From NCBI GenBank assembly GCA_902776615.1, contig CACYQU010000009.1:1-50911 (forward strand): a stretch of 50,911 nt of DNA, given 5' to 3'. Source of the DNA: an uncultured bacterium. GTDB taxonomy: Bacteria; Verrucomicrobiota; Kiritimatiellia; RFP12; UBA1067. The position numbers were made by a program, and so were the translations under genes. Positions 29,101 through 46,225 of this stretch are shown one piece after another. Every line of letters begins with the position of its first letter. Position 1 is the first letter of the stretch. The notes beneath the pieces are model-generated. The model was not told the DNA's origin and made no database searches. It saw nothing but the letters and a program-made list of their open reading frames with translations.

Positions 29101-32100
29101 CCCAGTTTTCGACAGCATTCTTCGTAGTGATGTCGATATCGTTGGTGACGAGCGTCGAATCGTCCAGGTCTTTGCGGAACACGAACTTCAGCGACTGTAT
29201 CTTGTCGGCGGCGCGCGGCGTAAACGTTCCGTCGGGATTCATCACGCCGTTGACCGGCAGCGTCACGACATAGTTCTCGCCCGGCGTGGCCGGCGGGGTC
29301 GGCACCGCGAACTCGTTTGCCAAATCGGTCTTCTTCTGCCCCTTCTTCTCATAGAGCGGGCCGACGTTCGGGCCAATGCGCTTAAGTCCGTCCGTAGACG
29401 TGTTCGCCCTGCCGCGCGTCGGCGTGGGGCAGAGCCAGCGGCGCGTGCCTTCGCCTTCCGCCGCATCGCCGACGATGATCGACCAACCCTCGGGCAAGTC
29501 GCTGGGGATGACGACGGTATCGACGACCGTGCCGCTGTCAGAGTCGCCTCCCGGCGCATGGTAGAGGCGGACGTATGGCGACTTCTTCGGATTCACCTTG
29601 TCGCCCCATACGAGGATGTTGTGTAGATCGGTGCCCATGACCATCGGCTTGCCGTCGAATGTGCCGTGTTCAAACGCACTCACCGTCTGGTCCTTGCTGT
29701 TCGAATAGCGTTCGGACGTGTAGAATATCGCACGGCTGCGCGGCGGCACAAGGCGGGACGGAAAGTTGCCAAAACCCGCCGGATCAGTCTTCTTGCCGCG
29801 GTTCACGCGGATGAAGCGGTAGTCGGCAAGGTCGGCCCACTTGTCGGACGTATTCTCTACCTCTACCCAGCCACTTTCAAGTCCATTCACGTCCATCCCC
29901 TCCATGCCATTCAACGTCTTCGCGTCCGTCGGCTTCGGCATGATCTCGCTGATCCTCAGCACGCACGCGTTCGTTACCTCAGGTTCAATCCCACCGGTTG
30001 TCCTGTATAGGTCAAATACGGCAAGTTGATTCGCTATCGGTTCGCCCGAATAATCTACAAGGAAGTCAAAAGGCGTGAATACGCGCGCGGCAGAAGACGC
30101 AGAAGACAACGCACTGGAATTGTCCGGGCCAAAATCGGTATCGACTGCAAATATCTTCATGCCGGCTATCGGGTAAGTTCCAGCAGAGTCGCTTCCGAAC
30201 GACACTGTTTTCGACACCAGATGAAGATTGTTATTACCCGTCCATTTTATGCCGGCGTCAGATGCGACTTCTACTCCGTCAAGATAGAGCTTTGCACCGC
30301 CCTGTGTCTCGTAGGCAAGCGTCCAGAGATGAATTCCAGAAACATCGAGTACGCTAGATTTGACAGATGATGCCGTCTTGGCCTTGTTGTCATAGTATAT
30401 TATGAACGTGCCATCGCCGTTGGCATAAGCATAGACCCTGTGTTCGTTCGAACCCCTTGCATCGACAATTCCAACGAGAGCCCCTTCGGCTCCGTCCGGC
30501 AGCTCCGCGAGGACGCTCGCAACGACGGCGTTCGTGCTGCCAAAGTCGAGTGTCTGCGTAATGCCAGTCTCGTCGAGGACGAGACCATCGACGTGTGAGT
30601 CCGGCACTTTCGTCGCATCCTGCGGAAACGACCAAGACACTTCGTCGCTTGTCGAAGAGTGAGCGCACTCAATATTCGCAAGGACGATATCCTTGAGCCA
30701 CACGGCATCGTCGGCCTCGGGCGTTCCATCCTTGTAGTCCTCAGAATCATTCATCGCAAAGCGCTGCGAAAACACGAACGTCACCTCGTGCGTTCCCGCA
30801 GGGATGTCAACCTGCGCAGCACTCCAGCTATTCGTGCATTCTGTCTGCGTCAATACCGGCGAATCATCCAAGAGCACATCGAAGTGCGAATAGTTGTTGT
30901 CGGCTATCGTCGTGCCGCCGAAGTACGACTTGTGCTTGAACGAAAGGCGCTTCGGGCCAACTATCGTCGCCTTGAGCGGCGTCGTGCACTGATATGTGTA
31001 GTCGGTCTGCTTGTAGCTGCGAATTGAATCCCCTTCTGTTGTCCAAGGATACTTATTGCTAGTCTGCCACAATCCTTCCGATGGAATATTGGCTAGCTTG
31101 TAGAATTGGACTGTGCGCGTAGGCGACATTACACTGTCTTTCAAATAGGCCACCTTTAGCGTCTTGTCTGCTTTGATATTGAGCGAAACAGCCGACTGCG
31201 TTGCCCAGGCCATATCATTGTCTTTCGTTGGCTCGCTGCCATCCAAGGTATAATATAATGTCGCCCCCTCGACAGGAGCCGCAACCGTTACTTTAATCGA
31301 ATCCTTGAAGACGCACCCAGAAACTATCTTGTCTCCGAATTCGTCGGTAACCATCGTCTCATCTCCATACGGTTTGACGCTATCACGCCATTGCGCTACA
31401 TAACGGCACGTCTCCCGCAAGACTCTGGCGTTATCGTTGTCTGCGTTACCGAGCGTAAATCCAAACTCTCCCGACGATGTAGAGAAGTAAGGCGAGGGAT
31501 GTGCGTAAACATCCGTTCCGTCAACATCGTAAGCCATAATGGTATGACGCTTGGTCTCACCATCCATGAAGTAGTACCCGCGCCCGTAACTGAATGGCGA
31601 ATTGGCCTCACTCTGCGCTCTCGCATGCCCGCACCCCATGTTGTGCGCATTTTCGTGGATCATTGTATGCTGGGTGCCAGTATCTACCGCCACAATGCTG
31701 CAAACGCTAAATGCATCATCGTGGCACCCTGCCACATCAGTATTGGAAGTAAGCGGCGAACTGTTCCCCAGCGTCGCGCCACTAGTATTGACAAGCAGCG
31801 TCACGGTATCTGCCCCATACAGCTCGCGCATTGCCCGTAAGGTTACCGCCGCACCATCCCCTTCCGAAACCATAGCCGGCGCGGTGTCGATATTGTCATA
31901 CGTACCAGACACCTTGCAAACGCCTGCCAATCTATAGGAATAGCATGTGTCCAATTTATTGGTAGCGAGGATATCATTCATCTTGTCGATTTGCTGTTGC
32001 GCAAATTCTTCCAGCGACCTTTCGCCCATATATGTTACCGCTCCATTGTCATATGCTACCAGCACATCCACAACTGGCAAACGGGTCTGATACTCAACAT

Positions 32101-35100
32101 AATTAGGGTCATACTTGTAGCAAAGTTGCGTTGTAGAGTTGCCAAAAACCGCTTTGTAACCTGCGGGCTGCATCTCTAGCTTGTCAATGTTGGCAAAACC
32201 GCCATTCGCGGTCAACATCGGAATCGCGCCATCTTCAGCAGGATTGTCCAAGACAATCCTAAGCTTCGAGCAATCCAGCGAAACCGATCCTGTTATGCTC
32301 AATGCCGCGCCGTTCGCAATCGTCACGGTTGAATTGTTCACGCTCACGCTGGCCACAGTCAACGAATTGGAAAGCAGAAGTCCCGCATCTTGAATATTTA
32401 GATTTGCCGTAGAGAAACCAGATACATCGCAGTCCGCGCCAATTGCCAGATAGCCGTTGTTAACCGTAACGCCTGCTCCGTCCGACTTGGTCGAGAGCGA
32501 GCCAGTGACAACCGCAGAAACAGGATTCCACTGGTCGCCAAACATGGAATCGCTCGCACACTTCAGATTCTTGACGGCAAGCGATCCACAAAGTTTCGCA
32601 CCGCTCCCGTCAAGCGTCACAACTCCGTCGCCCGTGATTGCACCCGAGCCTGTGAGCCTAGCCCCGCTCGCTACGGTATACGCCCCGGCGTTCTCGTGCT
32701 CGGCGTTCAGTGCGAGCGTCATTCCTCCGCCGATTTCCGTAGCCCCACTATAGGTAAGCGCCTCGTCGCCGAAACCATTTTGCACATAAGTCCCCTCACC
32801 CGACAGCTTGATTCCGCCTGTCGAAGTCGAATTACCTACATATACCACATTGTTGACAAGGCATGCATTATTCGAGAATTTGAACGAAGGGCTCCCGTCC
32901 CTCATATACACATACTTGGCATCTGTGGTGGCTGATATGTCGCAGTCCAGCGAAGAATCCGCAGATACGTTCAGCGTCAAGCCATTCATCAAATCAAGTC
33001 CTCGACGACTGCTTGCGCCTTTCAGCAGTATGCTTCCGCCAGCAAAATTCACTGTTCTTCTCAGGCTGTCGCGAGTATTGAATGTTACTGTGCCGCCTTG
33101 TCTAATCGTCAATGTGCTGTTGCCTACATTATATCCTGTCACATCACCTTTTTCAAAAACCAGATTGCCACCATTTTCTACATCAAGTTGCAAACTACCA
33201 AAAAGCCCTTTTCCACCATTGGCATCTCCGGTAAATCTAACTGTACCTTCACCGATAATGAATTTAGATGTATTCCAGTATGTGCCGGTATTGTTGAACT
33301 TTTCAAAAGTCTGCGTCTTACCATTGCCAGGCGCAACTCTTAGCGTCGATGCCGCGCCTACAACGATAGGCGTACTGGGACTGAATGTTGCCGATGAGGA
33401 TGTTGCGTTTGGTCCAAACGGAGCATTGAACGCATATGTCTTCCCGGCTGCCACCGTGAATGAATCCGCCTCCAGTTTCACGGGAACATTGAATGTTACA
33501 TTACCGGAAGGACTGAAGTTTGCGTCCGGAAATGTAATGCTCGCATTATCGTCGCCCTTGTCAAACGTATAGGCTGTTGTCGTAGCGTTAAATGCGACAG
33601 TGCCCGGCACGACTTCGCCTTTTACTGTTACGGTGGACGATGAATTGCCAGAAAGATTGCCGAATGTAACGGATGGAGAAAGACCGTTCTCGAAAGAGTT
33701 TGCTGAATCGTTCCACGAAAGTACGGCAGAATCGCTCATCCAGCGGCCGTCTCCGCTCTGCCCGGCTTCGCCGGACCATGCAAGTGGAACGCTGTCAACA
33801 AACGAAACGCTCTTCAGGAAAAGACCATGTGTGCCGCTTACTGGCTTTGAAGAGTTTTGACCGTACACAAAACGCACATCATGTGTTCCCGCTGGGATAG
33901 AAACTTTTCGTGTAACATCGGCTGAAGATCCGCTCGCATCCAACATCAATTCTTCGCCGTCAATTGTGACACTAAAGGAACTACCGTTGAGGAAAGCTGT
34001 CTTATATGTAAACTCCATAAGCTTTGGTCCATCCACCAAAGTGCCTAGCCATGTTGAATTGTGCAAGGGACCTGTGCCAAAGTTGTAGTTGAATATATAG
34101 GTTTGTGCGCTCTGCCCCCATTCGTTCTGCGGTGAACCTGACCAGATACGTGTGGAATCGCCAAGCCATGTGCTCATGTCCACTCCGCCCTTGTTTCTCG
34201 TCTTGTAGTTCGATATCGCCACGGCGCTGGTTTTGCCATCCACATCAACCGCTATTGCCTTTATTGTCGCATTGCCGCTGACGGCGATTGGAGCGGTGTA
34301 GAGCGATGATTTGGCGGTTGGAGTCGATCCGTCGGTTGTGTAGTAGATTGTCTGGCCGTCACAATCTGTATAAAGAGTCACGTTTATGGTGTTATTGAAC
34401 GAGGCGACGTCACGAGGCGAAAGAATCACTTCTGTCGGATTATCAACCAGTTGCAGGTCATCAAGCCACACGCCAGAATCTAAGTAATGATAATTTCCCT
34501 GTGAATAAACTACGGCTACCCTGTGGAGCCCCGAAGGTATGTCAACATAATCCCTGCGCCATGTCATACTTGACTCAGAGGTCGCAAAAGTTTCCCCTCC
34601 TTCACATACGACCGAAAAGCGTCCCCAGATATTATATCCCTCAGACTGTGAACCAAAATTGGATTTGTGGCGAAAATACAAACGTTTAGGTCCTGCTATC
34701 TCCGTTGCAATGTACGAGACCTTGTCAGCACCATATGCTTCCCCAAATGTATAGTTATGCAACACCGTTGCAGTTCCGTTAGTCCAGTCAGTGGTTGACA
34801 CTGTCTGCCAGGGATAGTCGCCGCTCGTTTCCCAAACAAGTCCTTCGGAGCCTGGGAATGCAGGAATAGATCCTTTGACAAGTCTCACGGAACGCACAGA
34901 TTGCGCCACTCCGTCAACCACTATCGAAGCCGTCAATGTTGTTGTATCTGTTACTGTAATAGTCGAATAAGGGTTATATGGCAATGATTGAGTATTTGGC
35001 GTTGTCCCGTCACTCGTCAAATATATCTTCGCCTCCGAATACTTGCTGTCAACCGAAAGAACAACTTTCATGCTGTTCTCGAAAATGCGGCCGTTTCTAA

Positions 35101-36490
35101 GCTCATTGCCGTTTTCGTCAAGGAATCGCACATCCCATTCATATGGAACTACATGGTTGCGATATGCGCTTACACCAGCACATGTTTCCATCAAGACCCT
35201 ACGATTGTTATTGCTTATCGTAGTACCGATTGAAATTCCATATTCGTCTGGAGTCAGGTCTGGTGAAGAGAAATATGGTGCGGCAGCCCAGCTTAAATAG
35301 TAGTTCCCATCGGCGGTGTTATAGCCCATCACAGTACGATAACGTTTATTGTCCGTCTCAGCGATAAAGTGGAAGCCGCAGGAGTATGTAGTTGACTGAG
35401 GGGCTTTAAACCCATTGTTCCTGTTACTGTGTCCACATCCCATGCAATGCCCGGTTTCGTGAGCCATGGTGTATTCCCTGAATGTACGCTGAATATGACA
35501 GATATTGTATCCATACTGGTTAAGGGCATAACTGCTCATACTGGCAGAATCTACGCCGTACAGGCCATTTGCGATTCCAGTGGTGTATGAGTTCTGATTT
35601 TCATCGACATTCACAAGCAAAGTAACGGTATCAGCACCATAGTAGTCGCGCAATGCCGGGATCTTCTCAAACGGAGCAGCACCTTTGCGCAAGTCGGTCA
35701 ACATTGCATCCGTAATGTTATTGTACTCGCCATCAACTTCTGTTGTACCGACAAGCCGAAATAAAAACTTATCATCCACTTTTGTATTAACAAGAACATC
35801 ATTCATTCTCTGGATTGCAGCATCCGCACAGTCTTCAAGAGAATCCCACTCGCTTTCATCGCGGAGCGCCCACGCTTTAGCCCCTTGATCGAAGGCGACG
35901 AGGATATCTACAACTCTCTTTTGCTCTGCGAGGGGGAATTCATTGCCGGATGCGCCAAGCAGCGTGCGCGACTTTTTGGTTGACGTTGTCTTGGTTTCTT
36001 CGACGGCCGGCTGAGGGACCTCGATATCGCCGCCGCATGTGCCGCACTCGCCGTCATCCATCTGCGAATTGTCGCGCTCGACTATGAGCACCTTGCCGTC
36101 CTTGCAGCGGACGGTGTACTGCCGCCGGTTCATGAAATCGTCCACGGATATGCGGGCGGCCTTTTCGCTTACCTTCACAATCGCCGAGGCCGAACCGTTC
36201 GCATCCTTCGCGATGAAACTCTGCCCCGCGATACCGGCCGGCGGTGCGGAAACGATTCTGAGGGCATAGTCCACATCGCCGAAAAGCCTGAGGTTCAGCG
36301 TGTCGCCTACCGCGACTGCGGGGACTGTCCCCATAACCGCCGGCATCTCCGCGCGCCGCAATACAGGCGCTTCGGCGTCATGCGCAACGCCACAGGTGAA
36401 GTCGAGCGTATACTCCGCCGCACAGGCCGCAACCGACCAAAAGAGCGACGACGCGATAAGCAGCGCCGCCGCATTTTTCCCTCCAGACAT
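26195..36490 (-). CDS. Giant secreted protein: two metzincin domains, chitobiase-like domains, LamG-like, LTD and CotH-like domains
   Basis: 3431 residues with a signal peptide (residues 1-26, ending SVAACA). Metzincin 1: HETGHCMGCGH at 344-354 with Met-turn VMGY. Metzincin 2: HENAHNMGCGH at about 1612-1622 with Met-turn IMAY. Chitobiase-C-like repeats (YYTTDGSTPTA type) near 470-540, 690-770 and 1720-1800. A beta-strand-rich, autotransporter-like stretch at about 900-1430. LamG-like domain about 1960-2130 (YLDGVEV). Lamin-tail-like domain about 2175-2380 (ISEIMPKP). CotH-like region about 2530-2930 (DLRGNTSAGF, GYDFNLTF). Further LTD-like units about 3000-3260. Ends SGFFRVKVLP without a barrel. 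SD AGGAGG before ATG 36490. Likely a surface or extracellular protease/adhesin; substrate unknown. Confidence 0.85.
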   Translation of the reverse strand: MSGGKNAAALLIASSLFWSVAACAAEYTLDFTCGVAHDAEAPVLRRAEMPAVMGTVPAVAVGDTLNLRLFGDVDYALRIVSAPPAGIAGQSFIAKDANGSASAIVKVSEKAARISVDDFMNRRQYTVRCKDGKVLIVERDNSQMDDGECGTCGGDIEVPQPAVEETKTTSTKKSRTLLGASGNEFPLAEQKRVVDILVAFDQGAKAWALRDESEWDSLEDCADAAIQRMNDVLVNTKVDDKFLFRLVGTTEVDGEYNNITDAMLTDLRKGAAPFEKIPALRDYYGADTVTLLVNVDENQNSYTTGIANGLYGVDSASMSSYALNQYGYNICHIQRTFREYTMAHETGHCMGCGHSNRNNGFKAPQSTTYSCGFHFIAETDNKRYRTVMGYNTADGNYYLSWAAAPYFSSPDLTPDEYGISIGTTISNNNRRVLMETCAGVSAYRNHVVPYEWDVRFLDENGNELRNGRIFENSMKVVLSVDSKYSEAKIYLTSDGTTPNTQSLPYNPYSTITVTDTTTLTASIVVDGVAQSVRSVRLVKGSIPAFPGSEGLVWETSGDYPWQTVSTTDWTNGTATVLHNYTFGEAYGADKVSYIATEIAGPKRLYFRHKSNFGSQSEGYNIWGRFSVVCEGGETFATSESSMTWRRDYVDIPSGLHRVAVVYSQGNYHYLDSGVWLDDLQLVDNPTEVILSPRDVASFNNTINVTLYTDCDGQTIYYTTDGSTPTAKSSLYTAPIAVSGNATIKAIAVDVDGKTSAVAISNYKTRNKGGVDMSTWLGDSTRIWSGSPQNEWGQSAQTYIFNYNFGTGPLHNSTWLGTLVDGPKLMEFTYKTAFLNGSSFSVTIDGEELMLDASGSSADVTRKVSIPAGTHDVRFVYGQNSSKPVSGTHGLFLKSVSFVDSVPLAWSGEAGQSGDGRWMSDSAVLSWNDSANSFENGLSPSVTFGNLSGNSSSTVTVKGEVVPGTVAFNATTTAYTFDKGDDNASITFPDANFSPSGNVTFNVPVKLEADSFTVAAGKTYAFNAPFGPNATSSSATFSPSTPIVVGAASTLRVAPGNGKTQTFEKFNNTGTYWNTSKFIIGEGTVRFTGDANGGKGLFGSLQLDVENGGNLVFEKGDVTGYNVGNSTLTIRQGGTVTFNTRDSLRRTVNFAGGSILLKGASSRRGLDLMNGLTLNVSADSSLDCDISATTDAKYVYMRDGSPSFKFSNNACLVNNVVYVGNSTSTGGIKLSGEGTYVQNGFGDEALTYSGATEIGGGMTLALNAEHENAGAYTVASGARLTGSGAITGDGVVTLDGSGAKLCGSLAVKNLKCASDSMFGDQWNPVSAVVTGSLSTKSDGAGVTVNNGYLAIGADCDVSGFSTANLNIQDAGLLLSNSLTVASVSVNNSTVTIANGAALSITGSVSLDCSKLRIVLDNPAEDGAIPMLTANGGFANIDKLEMQPAGYKAVFGNSTTQLCYKYDPNYVEYQTRLPVVDVLVAYDNGAVTYMGERSLEEFAQQQIDKMNDILATNKLDTCYSYRLAGVCKVSGTYDNIDTAPAMVSEGDGAAVTLRAMRELYGADTVTLLVNTSGATLGNSSPLTSNTDVAGCHDDAFSVCSIVAVDTGTQHTMIHENAHNMGCGHARAQSEANSPFSYGRGYYFMDGETKRHTIMAYDVDGTDVYAHPSPYFSTSSGEFGFTLGNADNDNARVLRETCRYVAQWRDSVKPYGDETMVTDEFGDKIVSGCVFKDSIKVTVAAPVEGATLYYTLDGSEPTKDNDMAWATQSAVSLNIKADKTLKVAYLKDSVMSPTRTVQFYKLANIPSEGLWQTSNKYPWTTEGDSIRSYKQTDYTYQCTTPLKATIVGPKRLSFKHKSYFGGTTIADNNYSHFDVLLDDSPVLTQTECTNSWSAAQVDIPAGTHEVTFVFSQRFAMNDSEDYKDGTPEADDAVWLKDIVLANIECAHSSTSDEVSWSFPQDATKVPDSHVDGLVLDETGITQTLDFGSTNAVVASVLAELPDGAEGALVGIVDARGSNEHRVYAYANGDGTFIIYYDNKAKTASSVKSSVLDVSGIHLWTLAYETQGGAKLYLDGVEVASDAGIKWTGNNNLHLVSKTVSFGSDSAGTYPIAGMKIFAVDTDFGPDNSSALSSASSAARVFTPFDFLVDYSGEPIANQLAVFDLYRTTGGIEPEVTNACVLRISEIMPKPTDAKTLNGMEGMDVNGLESGWVEVENTSDKWADLADYRFIRVNRGKKTDPAGFGNFPSRLVPPRSRAIFYTSERYSNSKDQTVSAFEHGTFDGKPMVMGTDLHNILVWGDKVNPKKSPYVRLYHAPGGDSDSGTVVDTVVIPSDLPEGWSIIVGDAAEGEGTRRWLCPTPTRGRANTSTDGLKRIGPNVGPLYEKKGQKKTDLANEFAVPTPPATPGENYVVTLPVNGVMNPDGTFTPRAADKIQSLKFVFRKDLDDSTLVTNDIDITTKNAVENWGDQYTATIPAVYFPAAGHLMQWKVLITDGEGVGWTSPSFNNPDDGYEWYGTIVEPDPATQMSAMLPTWHMFASGNHLTQMDVDADKQDRSKVPNQARVAIYDSSTSNYYDYVRIDLRGNTSAGFTKKGHGLRFAKSHPLTMVDSVTGEPIEEIRKTSLISEFADPSCMRQMVAFWLWKKMGNLVPFDFPVRCNLNGEFYQLAFNSERFTDELVEDVYGLDKFGYSYKNVGTLKSGSGTTAGGIEKKTPDDENESDITVLQNELRSKITAAQQVSSSPDGGSDGLDNAALTKFVVQKFNLPAWLNYFASARITQEMDDVWANVCIYYDNPDMKEGARGTGTWMPLGYDFNLTFGQHYRDGGMGASGLKAQDDWFKCHPLYGGNRVRCYSSSAMTSTINYGNDGFESVLQSAKFRRLYLRRLRTLMDQELKSPGTAEGDTPFMAKMREMADLMRTDAALDLAKWPNNGSDYAIDVWPSNGRPANMDAGIQDIWDNYVVPRREHLYVTHSVTNTAKEVGYGSNLNAGIPKAQSPVETLAPNISISNLTALDAADAEALGVAGQLYDTEVVVIRNANDEVVDMSGWRLAFSVDFTFPAGTVCDANDSIYVVADRRAYVTSHSDELTDQVIVGNATFTGAGPVALYDADGALVYSAIPQTDELKYLRLHSFYGNTLDGDGDAGEWFTLTNISDAVTLDLAGVTVCFLKQGDPEDGTAHCHVTLENKKGKGSIAPLKSWTASQADYSDKGWEKIQNNKQQIAIYDKYGSVCQSLKVTQKNFPLAYGKGGYLVCDSIDARVASDSQWHEALPNNGGSSEPFAADSQEAADELVANAKPALSDDDITAGLDAQYLKVVAEPVEGSPGKYKAAVVANPETVAAPIVAGHVEEGEPVEVEEDNDGNTTVSVTISNAIRGLWYGYEVSDALGGGVLFENDVRSFERAEGTSHKVRGSPRDRSEKPSGFFRVKVLPAKPR

Positions 36491-36514
36491 GTTCCACCTC
36501 CTCTGTTTGGTGCA

Positions 36515-36523
36515 ATTATACCA
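36515..36523 (-). promoter_or_regulatory. Extended -10 promoter of the giant gene
   Basis: Minus strand TGGTATAAT; predicted +1 near 36508, leader about 18 nt carrying AGGAGG. Confidence 0.75.
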
Positions 36524-36561
36524 TAATTTACCCTGCACCGCCCAATCGGCGAACACCACGG

Positions 36562-38213: not shown

Positions 38214-38222
38214 ATTATACCA
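38214..38222 (-). promoter_or_regulatory. Extended -10 promoter of the ACT-UPF0210 operon
   Basis: Minus strand TGGTATAAT; overlaps the last codons of the XRE/zinc-ribbon gene. Predicted +1 near 38207. Confidence 0.75.
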
Positions 38223-38691
38223 AAACATACGGCTCGCCGCAGTGTGAACACACGGCGCCGTCGTGAACGGCCGCGCCGCAGTTGGGGCAACGCCTTTCAA
38301 GAACCTCGCCGCACATGGCGCAGAACCGCCCGCCAACAGGGTCGGCAACCGCGCGGTCGGGGCGGACGAACAGCCGCCCCTCGACCTCGTATCTGCGGTT
38401 TGACGGACATGACGCATTGGGGCAGAATCCCGTGTGTTCGCCCGCCAAAGGTCTGGTCTCTATTCGCCCGGGCATCGCCTGCGGCGCATCGGCGGACGGT
38501 ATCGCCACTCCGAACTTTTTTGAAAGCTTCTCCACAACATCGTCGTTCAGCTTCGTGCCGTCGCCGCTTTCAAACATGGATATGGCGGACTGCTTGCAGC
38601 CTACTTCGGCCGCAAGCTCGCCTTGCGAAATCTTGGCGGCGCGCCGCGCCGCTTTCACTTTAAAACAGAAATCTGGACTAAGGTTTGTCAC
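38215..38691 (-). CDS. XRE-family HTH protein with C-terminal zinc ribbons
   Basis: 158 residues. Residues about 8-62 are an XRE helix-turn-helix (VKAARRAAKISQGELAAEVGCKQSAISMFESG). Two zinc-binding units follow: FCPNASCPSNRRY (89-101) and the double ribbon FCAMCGEVLERRCPNCGAA plus CSHCGEPYV at the C-terminus, eight or more Cys in CxxC pairs. Such double-zinc-ribbon tails are structural or protein-binding. GTG start 2 nt from the predicted +1. Its promoter lies inside the DnaA-box-like cluster, so DnaA could control it. Confidence 0.82.
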   Translation of the reverse strand: MTNLSPDFCFKVKAARRAAKISQGELAAEVGCKQSAISMFESGDGTKLNDDVVEKLSKKFGVAIPSADAPQAMPGRIETRPLAGEHTGFCPNASCPSNRRYEVEGRLFVRPDRAVADPVGGRFCAMCGEVLERRCPNCGAAVHDGAVCSHCGEPYVLV

Positions 38692-38699
38692 GGGTGCAT

Positions 38700-38728
38700 A
38701 TTATGGACTTTATTTTATCAACTGACAA
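38700..38728 (-). promoter_or_regulatory. Promoter of the XRE/zinc-ribbon gene
   Basis: Minus strand TTGTCA (38728-38723), 17 bp, CATAAT (38705-38700). It overlaps a TTATCAACT box at 38715-38723. Confidence 0.65.
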
Positions 38729-38811
38729 GGGGGATGTTATCAACACTATCAACAGGTTTATCAACACTATCAACAAATGTTCACTACTCTGTTGATAAAT
38801 GCAGTTGATAA
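38715..38811. promoter_or_regulatory. Cluster of seven DnaA-box-like TTATCAACA sites, possible origin sub-region
   Basis: Forward 9-mers: TTATCAACT 38715-38723, TTATCAACA 38737-38745, CTATCAACA 38746-38754, TTATCAACA 38758-38766, CTATCAACA 38767-38775. Inverted: TGTTGATAA 38790-38798, AGTTGATAA 38803-38811. The middle four form a 21-bp tandem unit. The same box recurs in the dnaA-mnmG gap. They differ from E. coli TTATCCACA at position 6. Lies between two minus-strand genes, 3.3 kb from dnaA. Confidence 0.65.
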
Positions 38812-38813
38812 TA

Positions 38814-39533
38814 TCAATACATTCTCTTCAATATCTCCGACGGCAACAGGTACTCTTCGCCGTTTTTATGGGCGATGTTGTACTTTGAGAGTTCTTCCAA
38901 AACCGGGCCGGACAGTATATTGCCGTTGTCGTTGAAGAACTTTTCAAGTGCCGCACGTTTTTTGGCAAGGTTTCCGCTGGACTCGTTCGCCACAAGCACT
39001 CCCTCCAACAACTGCGCCCGGCGGATGCGGCCCTCGGTTTCGGCCTTGTCGCGAGCTTCGCGCACGGCTTCTATTACATGGTCGCGCGTTTCCCCGGGAA
39101 AGCGATCCGGCAATTCCACATCGCGATCCAACAGAGCGAGGGCGTTGGGGTTTCGCGACTGTTCATCGAAGTGGCGTTCCTGTTCGGCGGCAAGTTTTGC
39201 CGTCAGCTCGGCAACCTGTATTTTGAGGGAGTTTACCTCGGCTTGGGCTTTTTCGGCCTGGGCTTTTGCTTTTTTCGCCTCAGCTCTGAGTGTTTCCGCT
39301 TCTGTTTTCAGAGATTCGCTGGTCTGCAACTGCTGCTGGAGGTTTTCCACCTTTTCTTCGAGTTTGGCTTTATCTACGGCCAGTTCTTCAACTACCGCTT
39401 TCTGCACATCCAGTTCGGCAGGTTCGGGCTGTTCGGCGTTATCTTCTGCAGAGGTTTCTTCGAGAACATCTTCATCATCTCCGCCCTTTGCGGCATCCAT
39501 TATGGTTTGGGCGAGAAATTCTTCCATTCTCAT
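38814..39533 (-). CDS. Coiled-coil protein of unknown function
   Basis: 239 residues. An acidic N-terminus (about 15-45, DDEDVLEETSAEDNAEQPEP), a long heptad coiled coil at about 50-135 (ELAVDKAKLEEKVENLQQQL, EAKKAKAQAEKAQAEV), then a globular C-terminal part (LLDRDVELPDRFPGETRDHV, RAQLLEGVLVANESSG). ATG 39533 overlaps the preceding stop in ATGA, so it is coupled to the RNA methyltransferase gene. It is next to the DnaA-box cluster. No family recognised; a replication or structural role would be speculation. Confidence 0.75.
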   Translation of the reverse strand: MRMEEFLAQTIMDAAKGGDDEDVLEETSAEDNAEQPEPAELDVQKAVVEELAVDKAKLEEKVENLQQQLQTSESLKTEAETLRAEAKKAKAQAEKAQAEVNSLKIQVAELTAKLAAEQERHFDEQSRNPNALALLDRDVELPDRFPGETRDHVIEAVREARDKAETEGRIRRAQLLEGVLVANESSGNLAKKRAALEKFFNDNGNILSGPVLEELSKYNIAHKNGEEYLLPSEILKRMY

Positions 39534-40762
39534 ACGGCGTTTTGTCCTTTCAGTTCGCAACCGGGATATATGAATAGCCTACAGTCGATCGGACCGTTGA
39601 AAAACGGAACCCTGGTTCTGTAGTAGAGATTTACCATGCGCGCCAAGTCGGGATTGCCCGTTATGAGGCCGCCGGTCCAGCCGGCGCACTTTTCATTCAT
39701 GAAAGTGCCTATGCGTTCATAGACGGGTGCAAGCTCTTCGTATGTTCCAAGGCGTATTCCGTATTCGGGGTTGAAGAATATGCACCCCTTCCCGTCCGGC
39801 ACGGGAGTTTCGGCAAAGTCGCACGCTTTGAACTCGATATGCTGCGCAACTCCTGCGGCAATGGCGTTGGTGTATGCGTTTTCGATAGCATCCGGCGATA
39901 TGTCGGTGGCTATTATTCGAGGCATTGCAGAAGTGTTTTCCGCATTCTTGGCGTCAATCACCATTTCTTTCCATATCTGTTCAGGGGTCGCGCCGGCGCG
40001 TTGGCGCGGAGCCACCCGCGGCGCGGATTCGTTTGGAATCATGCGCGTATAGCCCTTTACTGACTGGAAAGCGAAGTGACCCTTGAGAGAGCCAGGCGCT
40101 TTGTTCATTGCCATCATGGCGGCTTCTATCGCTGGAGTGCCGCTGCCGCACATTGGGGCAAGGAAAGGATCTTTCCTGTTCCAGTGCATGGCCATGAGGC
40201 ACGCGGCGGCGAGTGTTTCCTGCATTGGCGCGGAACCGGGTATTTTGCGGTATCCGCGCTTGGAAAGAGGTTCGCCGGAAGTGTCGAGATATATTATGAC
40301 CTCGTCGCGCTCCCAATAGACGAAAACGGCGGATCCGATGTTTTCTCCACCTGAATCGGGGCGGCGCTGACAGCGTTCGCGCATGCGATCCGCAATGGCG
40401 TCTTTGGTGTAAAGCGATGGAAGCCTCGTATCGCGTATCGTGCTGTTGTGCACTATCGACGATACCGAAAAGTATCCATCGGCCTCGATAAGGTTTTCCC
40501 AATCTATCGAAAGGGCCGATTCGTAAAGATCCCGTATATTGCGGCAGGTGGTGCGAAGAAGCGGCACAAGCACGCGATGTGCCGTGCGCAGATAAAGGTT
40601 GAGCCTCATCACATCGCGCATCGAGCCGCGTACCACCACGGTATTTTCGGTAACCTCTATGGGCTTGTAGCCCATATCGATCACTTCAATCTCTGTCCAG
40701 CGCGAAAGTTCTTTTGCGCAGGATATTATGATAGGGTAGTTTTTATCCGTCCAAAGCTTCAT
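39530..40762 (-). CDS. THUMP-containing 23S rRNA guanine methyltransferase-like protein (RlmL N-terminal type)
   Basis: 410 residues. THUMP region about 40-160 (VVVRGSMRDVMRLNLYLRTAHRVL), then RGYRK, PMQETLAAACLMAMHW, DPFLAPMCGSGTPAIEAAM (SAM-binding motif I) and IIATDISPDAIENA. The catalytic motif IV reads FFNPEYGIRLGTYEEL near residue 333, i.e. NPEY instead of the usual NPPY. The family makes m2G in 23S rRNA; the target base here is inferred. It lies 42 nt downstream of dnaN in the same direction, with GGTGAA as a weak SD. Confidence 0.85.
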   Translation of the reverse strand: MKLWTDKNYPIIISCAKELSRWTEIEVIDMGYKPIEVTENTVVVRGSMRDVMRLNLYLRTAHRVLVPLLRTTCRNIRDLYESALSIDWENLIEADGYFSVSSIVHNSTIRDTRLPSLYTKDAIADRMRERCQRRPDSGGENIGSAVFVYWERDEVIIYLDTSGEPLSKRGYRKIPGSAPMQETLAAACLMAMHWNRKDPFLAPMCGSGTPAIEAAMMAMNKAPGSLKGHFAFQSVKGYTRMIPNESAPRVAPRQRAGATPEQIWKEMVIDAKNAENTSAMPRIIATDISPDAIENAYTNAIAAGVAQHIEFKACDFAETPVPDGKGCIFFNPEYGIRLGTYEELAPVYERIGTFMNEKCAGWTGGLITGNPDLARMVNLYYRTRVPFFNGPIDCRLFIYPGCELKGQNAV

Positions 40763-40804
40763 CGGTTCACCATTGACCTTTTCTTTTCCTCTGCAAAGAA
40801 CGTG

Positions 40805-41899
40805 TCAGCTTATCCTGAGCGGCATCAGCACGTACAGGAACGGTATGGAGCACTTTATTACGGCAGGCGAATGGCCATTGTTGATGTTGATGGTTATTTC
40901 ATCGTCATCTATCGCCTTGAGAGGATCCATAACGTAATTCGGGTTGAACATTATTTCGATGGTCTCTCCGCCATACTTGATCGGAACCTCGTCTTTCGCT
41001 TCTCCTATCTCGCTTGCGGCGGAAGTTACGGTAAGCCTGTTCGAATCGAAAATGAGCTTCGTGGAATGGGCTTCATCCATAGTCATTACGCTGGCGCGCT
41101 CGAGCGCGTCCAGAAGAAGCTGCCTGTCAATGGCTATAGTGTGCTGGCATTCGGCAGGTATCACCTGGCGGTAGTTCGGGTAGGAATCGTCCATTAGCTT
41201 CGAATATATCTGCACAGATCCTATATTGAAGCTTATCTTTGTATGCTGCACGTTTATCATAACGTCGCCTTCGCCGGCAAGCGAACGCTGCAGTTCCTGC
41301 ACGGCTTTCGAGGGCAGCACTATGTCGCGCTCGGAGGTTTTGGGAAACTCCATCTCTCTCTCCACAAGGGCAAGGCGGCGGCCGTCGGTTGCAACCATCG
41401 TCAGTTTCTCGTCCTTGAAACTCATGAGAACGCCCTTCAAAGTGCGACGGGTATCGTCTTGAGATGCAGCATAGGCGGTCTTTCTCAGCATTTCCTGGAG
41501 AGTCTGCCGCGGAATGGAATATTCGCAGTTTTCTTCCTCGCCTCCAAGTTTTGGAAAATCCGCCTCAGGCTTGCCGTTGAGTTTGTAGCTTGCGCTTCCT
41601 GCACGGATCACTGCCTGTTCATTCGAATCAATCTCTACATCAACACTGCCTTCGGGGGCTTTGCTGATAAGATTGAACAGCAGCTTTACGGGAAGAGTGG
41701 AAGCACCCTCTTCGGCAACTTCGCAATTGACGTTGCTCACTATTGAAATATCGAGATCGGTAGTGGTAAGCTTGAGATTTTCTCCGCGCGCTTCTATCAT
41801 CACGTTTTGCAATATTGGCAACGACCCCTTTCCCGCCACTATGTTCTGGACGGGTTTAAGAGCCTCGATAAACTTCGAACGAATTATGCTGAACCTCAT
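40805..41899 (-). CDS. dnaN: DNA polymerase III beta sliding clamp
   Basis: 364 residues, three-domain clamp. Recognised by MRFSIIRSKFIEALKPVQNIV, LPILQNVMIEA, LKLTTTDLDISI, VATDGRRLALVE, KLMDDSYPNYRQVIP and the C-terminal YVLMPLRIS, the hydrophobic pocket that binds clamp-binding peptides. ATG 41899 is preceded by AAAGGAAA. It is downstream of dnaA on the same strand, separated by a 254-bp gap with its own promoter. Confidence 0.97.
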   Translation of the reverse strand: MRFSIIRSKFIEALKPVQNIVAGKGSLPILQNVMIEARGENLKLTTTDLDISIVSNVNCEVAEEGASTLPVKLLFNLISKAPEGSVDVEIDSNEQAVIRAGSASYKLNGKPEADFPKLGGEEENCEYSIPRQTLQEMLRKTAYAASQDDTRRTLKGVLMSFKDEKLTMVATDGRRLALVEREMEFPKTSERDIVLPSKAVQELQRSLAGEGDVMINVQHTKISFNIGSVQIYSKLMDDSYPNYRQVIPAECQHTIAIDRQLLLDALERASVMTMDEAHSTKLIFDSNRLTVTSAASEIGEAKDEVPIKYGGETIEIMFNPNYVMDPLKAIDDDEITININNGHSPAVIKCSIPFLYVLMPLRIS

Positions 41900-42153
41900 T
41901 TTACTTTCCTTTCTCTGCCCACTCGGGGCTTTGGGTTGTAATTGTATCAAATACTTTAACTGAAATAAAGGGTTATGTTATTACTATTACTTAGGTGTGT
42001 TCACAATGTTGACAACTCGAGAATGCGTTGTGGCACAAGTGTTTCACGCGTTTTGCCATGTTCACTTCTTTTGCCATATCTCGTTCACTCCGTTTCATAA
42101 GACTGCCCGCATGTAGACAAATTCCAATTGATGCACACGTTATGCACAGGCTT
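41900..42153. promoter_or_regulatory. dnaA-dnaN intergenic region with dnaN promoter and one DnaA box
   Basis: AT-rich 254-bp gap without a gene. The dnaN extended -10 on the minus strand is TGATACAAT (41949-41941); predicted leader about 35 nt. A perfect TTATNCACA box, TTATGCACA, lies at 42140-42148 just beyond the dnaA stop. Several near-matches to TGTTCAC/GTTCAC motifs also occur (around 42000 and 42060). Confidence 0.6.
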
Positions 42154-43560
42154 TCAACCTATTCTATCCTCAATTGTAAGACCGAAATCCGAAATGACCG
42201 AAATGAGGTTTTCCTTCAGTTCCGGCTCGACATCTAGCCTCTTGGCGATTGATTTTACTCCGTGCAGAATGGTGGCATGTGTCTTTTCAAACTCCTTGGC
42301 TATCTCAGGAAGGCTCTTTGTGGTGTATTTTCTTGCGATATACATTGCAAGCTGGCGAGGAGTTACGAAAGATGCAGTTCTCTCAGAAGACAGTATCTGC
42401 TGAACCGAGACCGAATACTTTGATGCTACTGAAGACTGAATCTCCTCTATAGTCACCTTCTTCTGCTTTTTTTCCTTCTCTATGAAATCCTTCAGAAGAT
42501 GTGAGAGTATTTCATCGCTCAGTTTTATTGTCCGGTCAAGGCGCATCATCACATTTACCTTGCCTAATGCGCCTTCCATGGCTCTCACATGGCTTTTGAT
42601 GTTCTGTGCTATAAACTTAAGGGAGTCTTCAGATACCGGCGGATCCATCACCTCCGACTTTTTCTTGAGAATGGCAAGCCTCGTTTCATAGCTTGGCTGC
42701 TCGATCTCTTGAACCATTCCCCATTCGAAACGCGAAATGAGTCGTGGTTCTATGCCAGGCAGATCCTTTGGAGCAACGTCGCTCGTCATTACAATCTGCT
42801 TGCCGTCGTTGTGCAGAGAGTTGAAAGTATTGAAGAATTCTTCCTGGAAGTCCTTTCCCCGGCTCATGAATTGTATGTCATCCACAAGAAGAACGTCTAT
42901 TTTTCGGTATCTCTCTCTGAACTGCTGTATCGACGAACTTGTAAGTGCATTTACATATTCATTCAGAAATCTCTCGGCTGTAAGATAGCATACCGATGCC
43001 TTTGGATTGTTCTTCTTTATTTCGTTTCCAATGGCCTGCATGATATGGGTCTTGCCGAGACCGGTTCCGCCATGTATGAAAAGAGGGTTGAATCCTTTCT
43101 TGCCAGGTTCTTTTGCGGCACCTTTTGCAGCCGCATGGGCCCAGCTGTTTGAAGGACCGGTCACGAATTCGTCGAACGTATAATCATCGTTCAACGGCAT
43201 CGTCGAAACGAATAGACTGCTCTTCTCCGGTAAGCGCACTTCAGCATTCTTTTGCTTTGGCACTATTATGGACGGTTTTGCGCTCTCGTCGAATTTGAAG
43301 TCTATGGTTACTGCTTCACCGCCGTCTGACAATATAAGGGCGTTTTTGAGTTTTATGCCGTACGTATCTCTCAAAAGTTCAGCGGCGAATTGATTGCCGG
43401 TGAACACGGTATAATGTCCATTGACCTCTGAAATGGATGTTACCATGGAGAAGTGTCTCTTTGCTTGATCCTTCTCCTCCTGTGAGGATAACGTCGACAC
43501 ATAAAGGCCTACGGCTCTATTCCAAGCCGCTTCTGCTTTAGATTCTGGTGTGTCGTTCAT
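42154..43560 (-). CDS. dnaA: Chromosomal replication initiator DnaA
   Basis: 468 residues. Domain I about 1-75. AAA+ core with Walker A GGTGLGKTH near 165-172, Walker B VLLVDDIQFM, sensor motif TSDVAPKDLPGIEPRLISRFEWG. Domain IV: VTPRQLAMYIARKYTTKSLPEIAKEF, then EKTHATILHGVKSI, where the family usually has GRDHTTV; the aligned loop is T427-H428-A429-T430. The frame is open to 43692, but MNDTPESKAEAAWNRAV matches a normal start and lies about 29 nt after the predicted +1. Binds origin boxes and loads helicase. Confidence 0.97.
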   Translation of the reverse strand: MNDTPESKAEAAWNRAVGLYVSTLSSQEEKDQAKRHFSMVTSISEVNGHYTVFTGNQFAAELLRDTYGIKLKNALILSDGGEAVTIDFKFDESAKPSIIVPKQKNAEVRLPEKSSLFVSTMPLNDDYTFDEFVTGPSNSWAHAAAKGAAKEPGKKGFNPLFIHGGTGLGKTHIMQAIGNEIKKNNPKASVCYLTAERFLNEYVNALTSSSIQQFRERYRKIDVLLVDDIQFMSRGKDFQEEFFNTFNSLHNDGKQIVMTSDVAPKDLPGIEPRLISRFEWGMVQEIEQPSYETRLAILKKKSEVMDPPVSEDSLKFIAQNIKSHVRAMEGALGKVNVMMRLDRTIKLSDEILSHLLKDFIEKEKKQKKVTIEEIQSSVASKYSVSVQQILSSERTASFVTPRQLAMYIARKYTTKSLPEIAKEFEKTHATILHGVKSIAKRLDVEPELKENLISVISDFGLTIEDRIG

Positions 43561-43733
43561 TGCTATTGATCTTTCTTCTGCAAGTTTCGCATTATATGAT
43601 ACCATAATTTCTTCATCGGTGGTTATATGAGTAATATTCATGAGTAAACAACTTATGAACAACAATATGTTTATAACATATGGTATATACAATGGATACC
43701 ATCAGTGAGTCGGTTGCAGAACCTGCTTGTTTG

Positions 43734-43810
43734 TCTCACGCAAAGTGCGCTAAGCCCGCAAAGCAACCCTAAAAACATAACTTCGCGCACTTCGCGCACT
43801 TCGCGTGAGA
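43734..43810. repeat. Long imperfect inverted repeat with CTTCGCGCA triplet
   Basis: The 17-mer at 43734-43750 (TCTCACGCAAAGTGCGC) pairs with 43794-43810 (GCGCACTTCGCGTGAGA) with one mismatch, 43-nt loop. The right arm is part of three 9-bp tandem units, CTTCGCGCA at 43781 and 43790 and CTTCGCGTG at 43799. It is the only GC-rich island in the candidate origin. Confidence 0.85.
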
Positions 43811-44007
43811 TATATTCGGGGATTTTGCAATTACTTCAGTATCATAAAAGAAGGAATTTATTTGTTGATAACCATTTGATAAATGTTCACATAAGTTCAT
43901 AATTAATCTATTGACACATGAGATTTATTTTCTAAAAAGGTATTTATTGATAGTATTTTACCGTTTTTGTGCCATTATATTATCGCATAATGAATAATAT
44001 ATTTTTG

Positions 44008-44037
44008 TTCACAATATAGTAGATAATTTGGTATACT
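44008..44037 (+). promoter_or_regulatory. Promoter of mnmG
   Basis: TTCACA (44008-44013), 18 bp, TATACT (44032-44037), extended as TGGTATACT. Predicted +1 near 44044, ATG 44051: leader about 7 nt, no SD. Confidence 0.7.
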
Positions 44038-44050
44038 CTCGCCTGTCGAC

Positions 44051-46225
44051 ATGAAAAACTCTTACATAAATGTTATAGTGATTGGGGGCGGACACGCCGG
44101 GGCTGAAGCAGCTTTGGCGGCTGCCAGAATGGGTGCCAATACCCTTCTTGTGACTTCTTTGAAAGACGCTATCGCCCGTATGCCATGCAATCCGTCTATC
44201 GGAGGTTTGGCTAAAAGTCACCTTGTCTATGAGCTGGATGCGATGGGTGGAGAGATGGGACGAAACGCCGATGCAACTGCCCTTCAGGCTAAGACTTTGA
44301 ATCTAAGCCGTGGTCCGGCTGTTTGGGCTACTCGCGCCCAATGCGCCAAGCGGGAATATTCGCTTCGGATGCAGCGAGTGATAGACAATCAACCTAACCT
44401 TGAAGTCATTGAAGATAGCGTAATAGATTTGATTGTCCAAAAGCAGAGTATGGAGAGCAAAGATCGTCCAGCAGGTGTTGACGGCTCTCTTAAATGTGTT
44501 GGTGTCAAAACCCTCTCTCATGGTGAATTCTACGCAAGCGCAGTCGTTGTAACAGCTGGTACCTCTCTTAGGGGGCGAATATGGATAGGAAAAGATTGTC
44601 AAGAAAGCGCCGGCGATGACCGCCCGGCAGTAAATCAGTTATCTGAGACACTTTCTCGGCTGGGATTCAACTTGATACGCCTGAAAACCGGCACTCCTCC
44701 AAGGCTCAAGGCAGCTTCTTGCGACTTAAGCAAGTGTGTGAGGCAAGATGGAGAACATCCACGCCCATTGTTCCACGTGGAACAATTTATTGATGATGCT
44801 ATCCCTCGAAACTCTGGCGATATAGACTTATCAAGGGATAGAGACGCAAACCAAGTAAATTCGCATAGTTCTAGTTGTTCTAGCGAGGCTAGAGAGACTA
44901 GTAATGCTAGCGGATCTAGCTGTTCTAGCCGGGCTAGTGGCTCTAGCGGGGCTAGTATTTCTAGTTGCTCTAGCGGGGCTAGCGTTTCTAGCGTTTCTAG
45001 TGATACTAGCGGGGCTAGTATTTCTAGTTGTTCTAGCGTTTCTAGCGTCTCTAGCTGTTCTAGCGTCTCTAGAGGTTCTAGTTTATGTGGCTCCTCCAGT
45101 AGCCCTAGTGATTATGGGTTTGCTGGCAGTATTCTTGCTTCCGCAGGCGGCGACGAAATGTTCCACGTGGAACAAAATATGCCAGAGTACCCTTGCTGGC
45201 AAACGCATACAACGCCTGAAACGCATGATATAATACGCTTCAATCTCGATAAATCGGCGCTGTATGGAGGCGCAATACAAGGCACAGGTGTGAGGTATTG
45301 TCCATCGATAGAAGATAAAATAGTGCGGTTTGCTGATGCAGATCAGCACCATGTTATGCTTGAGCCAGAGAATATCGATGGTTCGGTTATATATCCCAAT
45401 GGTCTCAGTTGCAGTTTGCCGAGGGATGTACAGGAGCGTATGGTTCGATCCGTTCCGGGCTTGGAGCACGCGGAGTTTCTGGCATATGCCTATGCAATCG
45501 AGTATGACGGCATTGATGCGAGGGAGTTGAAGCATTCCCTAGAATCAAAGAGAATTGCCGGATTGTTTTTTGCCGGACAGGTAAACGGCACGACGGGTTA
45601 TGAAGAAGCCGCCGCGCAAGGATTTATGGCTGGTGTAAACGCTGTATTCAGTTCGCGCGGGGAAGAACCTCTGGTAATCAGCCGTCAAGATGCCTACATA
45701 GGCGTGATGATCGACGATTTGGTGACTAAGGGGACAGATGAACCATACAGAATATTCACCAGCCGCGCTGAGCGCAGACTGCTTTTGCGCCAGGATAATG
45801 CCAGATATCGCCTGGTCGATGCGGCAGAGCGAATAGGAATACGCGGCGAGTCCTATATAAATGAGACTAGACATTTCATGGAATTGCTGCAAAAGGGGAT
45901 GTCCTGCAAAGGGACAATGGATGAAATAGATGCATCATTGAGCGAGAAAGCGAGGAGGTATCTTGAGAGAGAACTAGGTATTATGCGACACTACGCGCCG
46001 TATATCGAGCAAGAGCGCAAGGCGGCAGAGCGGGCGAAGCAGGACGAAGCACTGGCGATTCCGCGCTGGCTCGATTACGACAAGTGCGTGGCCGTCAGGT
46101 ACGAGAGCAGAGAAAAACTGAAGAAATACAGGCCAGAGACGCTGGCCCAGGCCGCGCGAATACCCGGCGTAAACCCTAGTGATGTGGCCATACTGGCCAT
46201 AATCATCAAGCGCGGCCATGCATAG
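44051..46225 (+). CDS. mnmG: tRNA uridine-5-carboxymethylaminomethyl enzyme MnmG with a Ser-rich insertion
   Basis: FAD enzyme that works with MnmE on tRNA U34. 724 residues versus about 620-630 for the family. FAD site [19 protein letters not shown] at the start; [56 protein letters not shown]-terminal [14 protein letters not shown]. Between PRPLFHVEQ (241-245) and MFHVEQ (371-375) there are about 125 extra residues, mostly Ser in SS-x steps (274-344), where normal MnmG has a short FSF loop. Both FHVEQ are translations of parS sites. Both flanks are intact and in frame, so the enzyme is probably active. Confidence 0.95.
44769..44784. promoter_or_regulatory. parS centromere site 1 (ParB/Noc-type palindrome)
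   Basis: TGTTCCACGTGGAACA, a perfect 16-bp palindrome (18 bp with flanking T/A). It fits the parS consensus TGTTNCACGTGNAACA. It is in frame inside mnmG and reads as FHVEQ. Confidence 0.85.
44871..45081. repeat. 9-bp CTAG minisatellite inside mnmG
   Basis: CTAG occurs at every ninth base from 44871 to 45078, 24 times in exact register, with a further in-phase copy at 45105. The repeat unit is NNCTAGNNN. The reading frame splits CT|AG, giving Ser-Ser or Ala-Ser steps and keeping the TAG out of frame. CTAG is normally rare in bacterial DNA. Confidence 0.95.
45159..45174. promoter_or_regulatory. parS centromere site 2
   Basis: TGTTCCACGTGGAACA, identical to the site at 44769-44784 and 390 bp (130 codons) downstream in the same frame (FHVEQ again). 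The parAB genes are not in the window. Confidence 0.85.

Follow-up and report, generated by a model that had tools for sequence, protein, structure and literature searches.

The window analyzed here comprises all 50,911 bp of contig G000:C9, part of a draft genome of 2.35 Mb (127 contigs, 88% complete), and carries at 38.7 kb a dense array of 9-mers resembling DnaA boxes, located 3.4 kb past the stop codon of dnaA and beyond dnaN and two further genes. The question raised by this locus is whether the array forms one half of the replication origin, as proposed in a sequence-only reading of the window, or belongs to the gene that follows it, which encodes a helix-turn-helix (HTH) regulator with an HTH_3 domain and a double zinc ribbon. 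The overall account that is considered the more probable, with modest confidence, combines an origin around dnaA with a separate self-regulatory operator, the consensus of which overlaps the clade's DnaA box. Positions, conservation, array-gene linkage, GC skew, and site tolerance and spacing were computed; the binding protein and any effect on transcription or initiation were inferred.

The array (38715..38811), called here a promoter array, consists of seven 9-mers with a TATNAAC/GTTNATA core and lies between orf38.8 and the HTH gene. Copies of TTATCAACA with at most one mismatch start at 38715, 38737, 38746, 38758, and 38767 on the plus strand and at 38790 and 38803 on the minus strand, three of the seven being exact. 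They occupy exactly 97 bp, as the sequence-only reading had stated, and are far more numerous than in shuffled sequence: in 200 shuffles within 2-kb blocks, the maximum per 97 bp was one (178 shuffles) or two (22 shuffles), and the 122-bp intergenic stretch gave a shuffle mean of 0.15, with 0 of 500 shuffles reaching seven. Across the whole metagenome-assembled genome (MAG), 17 exact copies of TTATCAACA were found (4 of them in the window) compared to 7 for a control pattern, and 38.7 kb and 43.65-43.90 kb are its only locations with paired boxes (TTATNAAC within 25 bp).

Comparison across genomes links the array to the HTH gene. At least three boxes lie within 300 bp upstream of the gene in 65 of the 75 orthologue loci with enough upstream DNA, and when 4,608 overlapping 300-bp tiles from six contigs or contig parts were scanned, the 16 tiles with at least three boxes were every one at dnaA or at the HTH gene. 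The array accompanies the gene where the latter is displaced, whether to another contig (G001), by about 2 kb (G107), or to a position just upstream of dnaA (G081), and likewise in genera where the gene and dnaA occupy separate contigs. A downstream scan of 0.9 to 6 kb covered 30 dnaA loci at which the gene was not in view; the top counts per 300 bp were four (G084) and three (G041, G045, and G049), those of G084 and G041 falling inside the dnaA-dnaN gap, and no further-downstream array like that of the window was found at any of the 30 loci. Two contigs that carry the gene away from the dnaA contig (G041:C20 and G084:C218) have no skew switch at the gene, and in both genomes the contig with dnaA has its skew minimum at dnaA. 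The array follows the gene, the skew does not turn at the gene on these two contigs, and the array's sites differ from those around dnaA in tolerance and spacing (see below), making it very likely that the array belongs to the HTH gene and not to the origin.

The chromosomal origin itself can be assigned to dnaA with high confidence. The cumulative GC-skew minimum of the window falls at 43802, and on four other long contigs (G009, G016, G041, and G084) the minimum lies 1.3-3.3 kb from dnaA; the 184-kb contig of G009, for instance, has a clean V-shaped curve with its minimum at 127.8 kb and dnaA at 129.3 kb. These minima place the origin at dnaA and bear out the site favored by the sequence-only reading. 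Two exact parS-like palindromes, TGTTCCACGTGGAACA, lie within the mnmG frame (44769-44784 and 45159-45174), 1 to 2 kb from dnaA, and point likewise to an origin nearby. The divergence of genes from about 43.8 kb, given earlier as a further sign of the origin, holds in this contig but is not a general mark of it, because mnmG is co-oriented with dnaA in 10 of 12 genus relatives with mnmG in view.

The 9-mer family does recur, as had been claimed, in the AT-rich gap between mnmG and dnaA (42154..43623, minus strand; homology starts near 43623, taken as the approximate start). Boxes were found there at 43653-43902, namely TTATGAACA at 43653 (plus strand), TTATAAACA at 43668 (minus strand), and TTATCAACA at 43863 (minus strand), i.e., three boxes against a shuffle mean of 0.38, a count reached in 6 of 500 shuffles. 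An inverted pair, reading TTATAAACA-N6-TGTTCATAA on the minus strand, occupies 43653..43676; further boxes TTATGAACT and TTATCAACA occupy 43863..43902 on the minus strand, where TTATGAACT (equal to AGTTCATAA) closes a box pair at 43864-43902. An inverted pair with a 5- or 6-bp gap is present upstream of dnaA at 30 of 33 genus loci and at 12 of 23 loci of the family's other genera.

These boxes depart from the canonical form, as does the protein expected to bind them. Canonical TTWTNCACA has three matches in the window, of which one is near dnaA (42140), and canonical boxes do not characterize this locus. The DnaA recognition helix of the window reads KTHAT in place of RDHTT (GRDHTTV in B. subtilis DnaA). 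Among 77 aligned DnaA proteins of the order, none has Asp before the invariant His of this helix (Thr in 42, Ser in 13, Asn in 11, Lys in 9, Glu in 1, and Gln in 1), and 69 have Ala directly after it; residues 432-435 of E. coli DnaA are described as contacting bases specifically (PMC5043019). Comparison of sequences suggests that the DnaA box of the clade is TTRTNWACA, not TTATCCACA, with a recognition helix changed to match. The replacement of C by A or T at box position 6 would fit the altered helix, as a correlation and not as proof.

Judging from conservation, the second half of the origin is an element at 41975-42015 in the dnaA-dnaN gap, a region that the sequence-only reading did not list although it is home to the best-conserved element. 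Read on the minus strand from 42015 to 41975, it has the form TTGTCAACA-TTGTGAACA-CACCT-AAG-TAA-TAG-TAA-TAA-CAT, that is, two abutting DnaA-type boxes (41998..42015), a CACCT spacer (41993-41997), and DnaA-trio repeats (41975..41992) that form the likely opening site by the criteria of PMC8287927. The basal unwinding system outlined in that source comprises tandem boxes at most 3 bp apart, a spacer that is about 4 bp long and does not exceed 16 bp, and at least three N-A-N trios; the window shares all three features, with boxes 0 bp apart, a 5-bp spacer, and six trios. A search of the main text of PMC8287927 for Verrucomicrobia returned 0 mentions. When 52 dnaA-dnaN gaps of the family were aligned, conservation was highest in the block ACTTGTCAACATTATCAACAA-CCTAATAATA, which provides the top 20-column windows (mean conservation of 0.76 versus a median of 0.53), and a strict pattern (a box, then TAMTW at most 9 bp away) matches 42 of the 52. 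The gap of the window by itself is unremarkable, with one 9-mer at most one mismatch from TTATCAACA, as reached in 50 of 500 shuffles; because the box count in one genome is within chance, the claim for this downstream half rests on conservation in the 52 gaps.

Box clusters are therefore located on both sides of dnaA, upstream at 43653-43902 and downstream at 41998-42015. An origin here with a bipartite layout, as originally proposed, is retained, while the 38.7-kb cluster is very probably not one of its halves. By analogy with B. subtilis, an ordinary bipartite origin would be formed by the upstream boxes (43653-43902) together with the gap boxes, spacer, and trios (41975-42015), with DnaA binding on both sides and the strands opening at the trios.

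Free expectation-maximization motif discovery on promoter and gap sets gave low-information AT-rich motifs, and counts of single-base variants versus shuffles were used instead to compare the array with the dnaA-side sites. Within the genus, the core TTATCAACA is common to the arrays (60 copies, 0.15 expected) and to the dnaA-side sites (51 copies, 0.20 expected), but the tolerated variants differ: 49 array sites (23 of 33 genomes) carry T at position 9, 35 carry A at position 1, and 7 carry G3 or T6, whereas on the dnaA side (upstream sites and gap sites together) 61 sites (32 of 33 genomes) carry G3 or T6 and 4 carry T9. The Fisher p values for this difference (2e-21 in the genus and 1.6e-7 in the family's other genera) are too small, because relatives are not independent, which weakens the contrast. 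Spacing differs as well, since inverted neighbors upstream of dnaA have a pitch of 14 bp (31 cases) or 15 bp (7 cases), and 0 of 32 inverted neighbors in genus arrays do, lying instead at 10-11, 20-24, and once 33 bp; direct neighbors in the arrays are chiefly 8-12 bp apart. In family f3, TTTTCAACA occurs in 9 of 9 dnaA-dnaN gaps, while the arrays keep TTATNAACA in 8 of 11 cases. The array does not follow the DnaA-site preferences of the clade, in which it departs from a DnaA-box cluster outside oriC, although DnaA may use it as a set of weak sites.

The likely reader of the array is the product of the HTH gene (38215..38691, minus strand), a 158-aa protein with an XRE-type HTH_3 domain (Pfam, 2.9e-11) and a double zinc ribbon (DZR, 1.3e-6). 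Its likely promoter, TTGTCA-17-CATAAT (38700..38728, minus strand), contains box AGTTGATAA within the spacer, and similar hexamers are present in many relatives; because the GTG start is only 8 nt past the second hexamer, the mRNA is perhaps leaderless. Of the order's 144 genomes, 103 have an orthologue, and the recognition helix GCKQSALSMFE is conserved across the order. A predicted model (mean predicted local distance difference test score, pLDDT, of 84) contains the HTH helices, and its fold neighbors in the PDB include HipB, C.Esp1396I, and P22 c2, all self-regulating repressors. The window has both traits of such repressors, an HTH_3 domain and candidate sites overlapping the gene's own promoter. 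A PDB sequence search with the protein returned zero matches, an NCBIfam search gave only aMBF1/HipB matches far under the cutoff, and a literature search by title gave no paper on an XRE/zinc-ribbon protein tied to origins.

The nine full-length orthologues from outside the order (eight genomes) supply a more distant comparison. Their promoters contain TATCAAG ten times in four of the nine (0.25 expected) and TATCAAC three times in two of the nine; TATCAAG lacks the ACA end of the DnaA box and is thus not a DnaA box. From these promoters, TATCAA would appear to be the core recognized by the HTH protein. With respect to operator symmetry, genus arrays include inverted neighbors 10-11 and 20-24 bp apart but also many direct repeats, and a palindrome CTTGATATTATCAAG is present in G326. 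In loci of other genera (L189, L191, L194, L195, L198, and L201), the array is centered on a conserved box, GGTGATAATAACCC or near it, and box, with a trio-like middle.

In the proposed mechanism, the HTH protein would bind half-sites of the form TATNAAC within its own promoter and ahead of it, probably acting as a self-repressor, and its role as the main reader of the array is judged somewhat better supported than not. Cross-binding of DnaA at the array is plausible, because the array consensus overlaps the DnaA box of the clade. Several observations weigh against the array being a self-regulatory operator of the HTH gene. The commonest array 9-mer is also the commonest site upstream of dnaA (TTATCAACA), and the array boxes are non-palindromic and vary in orientation and spacing, as DnaA sites do. 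In family f3, the position-9 test finds no difference (p = 1). Four of the nine distant promoters have neither TATCAAC nor TATCAAG, and the TATCAAG signal coincides in part with the promoter hexamer TTGATA. Furthermore, 10 of the 75 orthologue loci have fewer than three boxes (G122, G096, G041, G024, G025, G055, G033, G045, G049, and G060), and in G122 and G096 the array remained near dnaA while the gene lost it. This last case was at first taken as selection for an array near the origin, an interpretation that was dropped because the two loci are about 98% identical there and count as a single event.

In the main rival account, the array would be a genuine cluster of DnaA boxes that places the HTH/zinc-ribbon gene under the control of DnaA; DnaA would thereby time the expression of the gene, and the array would perhaps also keep DnaA near the origin. 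A single reader, DnaA, is the simplest account of a core 9-mer that the array has in common with the sites upstream of dnaA; loosely spaced boxes that are not palindromic and occur in both orientations, and the restriction of such arrays to dnaA and the HTH gene, agree with it, and DnaA is described as a transcription factor that acts on other regulators of the cell cycle (PMC8203912). Against DnaA control stand the tolerance and spacing of the array, unlike those of dnaA-side sites in the same genomes, the separate preferences of gaps and arrays in family f3, and the distant TATCAAG sites without an ACA end. On balance, this explanation is regarded as a credible minority view, less probable than self-regulation by the HTH protein.

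A wider and still more tentative proposal is that, order-wide, the HTH_3/zinc-ribbon self-regulator occupies the boxes at dnaA and oriC in addition to its own array, competing with DnaA as an unrecognized regulator of initiation. If so, closeness of the gene to dnaA, in two families with differing gene orders, would be selected. Among 86 genomes with both genes placed, 48 have the HTH gene and dnaA on one contig less than 15 kb apart; such linkage is seen in 29 of 30 genomes of the genus (distance mostly 4.3-4.9 kb), in all 12 genomes of genera g10, g15, and g19, and in 7 of 12 genomes of family f3, but in none of the 32 others. Family f3 includes genomes with the gene on one side of dnaA and genomes with it on the other, and gene orders differ between the two linked families, suggesting that closeness was gained two or more times or was frequently lost. 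Either history would fit a tie to replication without being proof of one.

The same proximity in the genus, and the array that stayed near dnaA in G122 and G096 after parting from its gene, are what speak for the model of the sequence-only reading, in which DnaA would bridge the 5 kb between the 38.7-kb cluster and the dnaA-mnmG boxes. This model is nevertheless improbable, as no comparable downstream array was found at the 30 scanned dnaA loci where the gene is not in view, the skew of G041 and G084 still turns at dnaA, a conserved second half is already present in the dnaA-dnaN gap, and the near-identical G122 and G096 amount to one event. The weakest alternative, that the HTH-gene promoter is the origin wherever it is located, draws on the two boxes around a trio-like GGTGATAATAACCC upstream of the gene in other genera but is rejected, with very little probability left to it, on the absence of a skew switch at the gene on G041:C20 and G084:C218 and the minima at dnaA on the dnaA contigs of those genomes.

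The preferred reading, an origin around dnaA plus a self-regulatory operator, can be compared with known systems. The layout of the origin resembles those of B. subtilis, H. pylori, and C. difficile, as far as these are described in PMC8235120 and PMC7561715, but its parts differ from the pair of clusters named by the sequence-only reading. With the bipartite oriC of B. subtilis and C. difficile it shares boxes upstream of dnaA, boxes and a DnaA-trio in the dnaA-dnaN gap, and a skew minimum at dnaA, and the trio of C. difficile oriC2, which is likewise in the dnaA-dnaN gap, is similar to that of the window (PMC7561715). In contrast to these origins, the box of the window is TTRTNWACA instead of TTWTNCACA, the gap core holds no more than two boxes, the upstream gene is mnmG and not rpmH, and a lookalike array lies 3.4 kb away. 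The regulator resembles HipB, C.Esp1396I, and P22 c2 in its HTH_3 domain, its fold, and the location of its candidate sites within and ahead of its own promoter; unlike them, it carries a C-terminal double zinc ribbon and has 3 to 10 sites in mixed orientation, with a consensus overlapping the DnaA box. DnaA-box clusters outside oriC and DnaA-controlled promoters likewise have DnaA-box-like 9-mers before a regulator gene, but the tolerance and spacing of the array differ from those of the clade's own dnaA-side boxes.

The origin has been located and dissected here in a group for which one literature search surfaced no origin study, and a changed DnaA box is paired with a changed DnaA recognition helix. 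For origin prediction by box counts, it matters that lookalikes of the DnaA box can cluster next to dnaA without belonging to the origin. Should the regulator and DnaA share sites in the cell, a new and testable control of initiation would result, which is the chief point of interest of this locus.

The nearest named relatives found for the window are the Verrucomicrobia MAGs UBA4286 and UBA7008, with best DnaA segment identities of 82% and 58%. From right to left, the neighborhood consists of mnmG (44051-46225, plus strand), the AT-rich gap, dnaA (minus strand), a 254-bp gap, dnaN encoding the sliding clamp (40805..41899, minus strand), an RlmL-like THUMP methyltransferase gene (39530..40762, minus strand), and orf38.8 (38814..39560, minus strand), followed leftward by the array, the HTH gene, an ACT-domain frame, and a DUF711 gene. 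Most genus members seen keep the order dnaA-dnaN-methyltransferase-orf38.8-array-HTH gene. The function-unknown orf38.8 is conserved beside the array in the genus, and searches of Pfam and NCBIfam with it gave zero matches. A second HTH gene with an array, flanked by orf38.8, methyltransferase, ACT, and DUF711 neighbors and encoding a protein 76% identical to that of the window, is present on G016:C38 (L119); the genome's own copy is on C30, and the C38 copy is perhaps contamination of that MAG.

The parS-like sites within mnmG lie one at each end of a Ser-rich insertion, about 120 aa long, that comes after PRPLFHVEQ. Sites with at most one mismatch were present in 10 of 10 genomes searched, in one place only in each, and at all 13 genus loci with a long mnmG frame every exact site of the locus (1 to 6 copies) lies inside the frame; the f2 genome G029 has two exact sites. 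A literature search by title for parS with gidA or mnmG gave no paper on sites inside the gene. From these positions, an expanded loop of the MnmG enzyme seems to host a centromere array. Elsewhere in the window, positions 26195-36559 (minus strand) form one open frame of 3,454 aa that has in part the look of a secreted protein and contains, by eye, a metalloprotease-like HENAHNMGCGH stretch.

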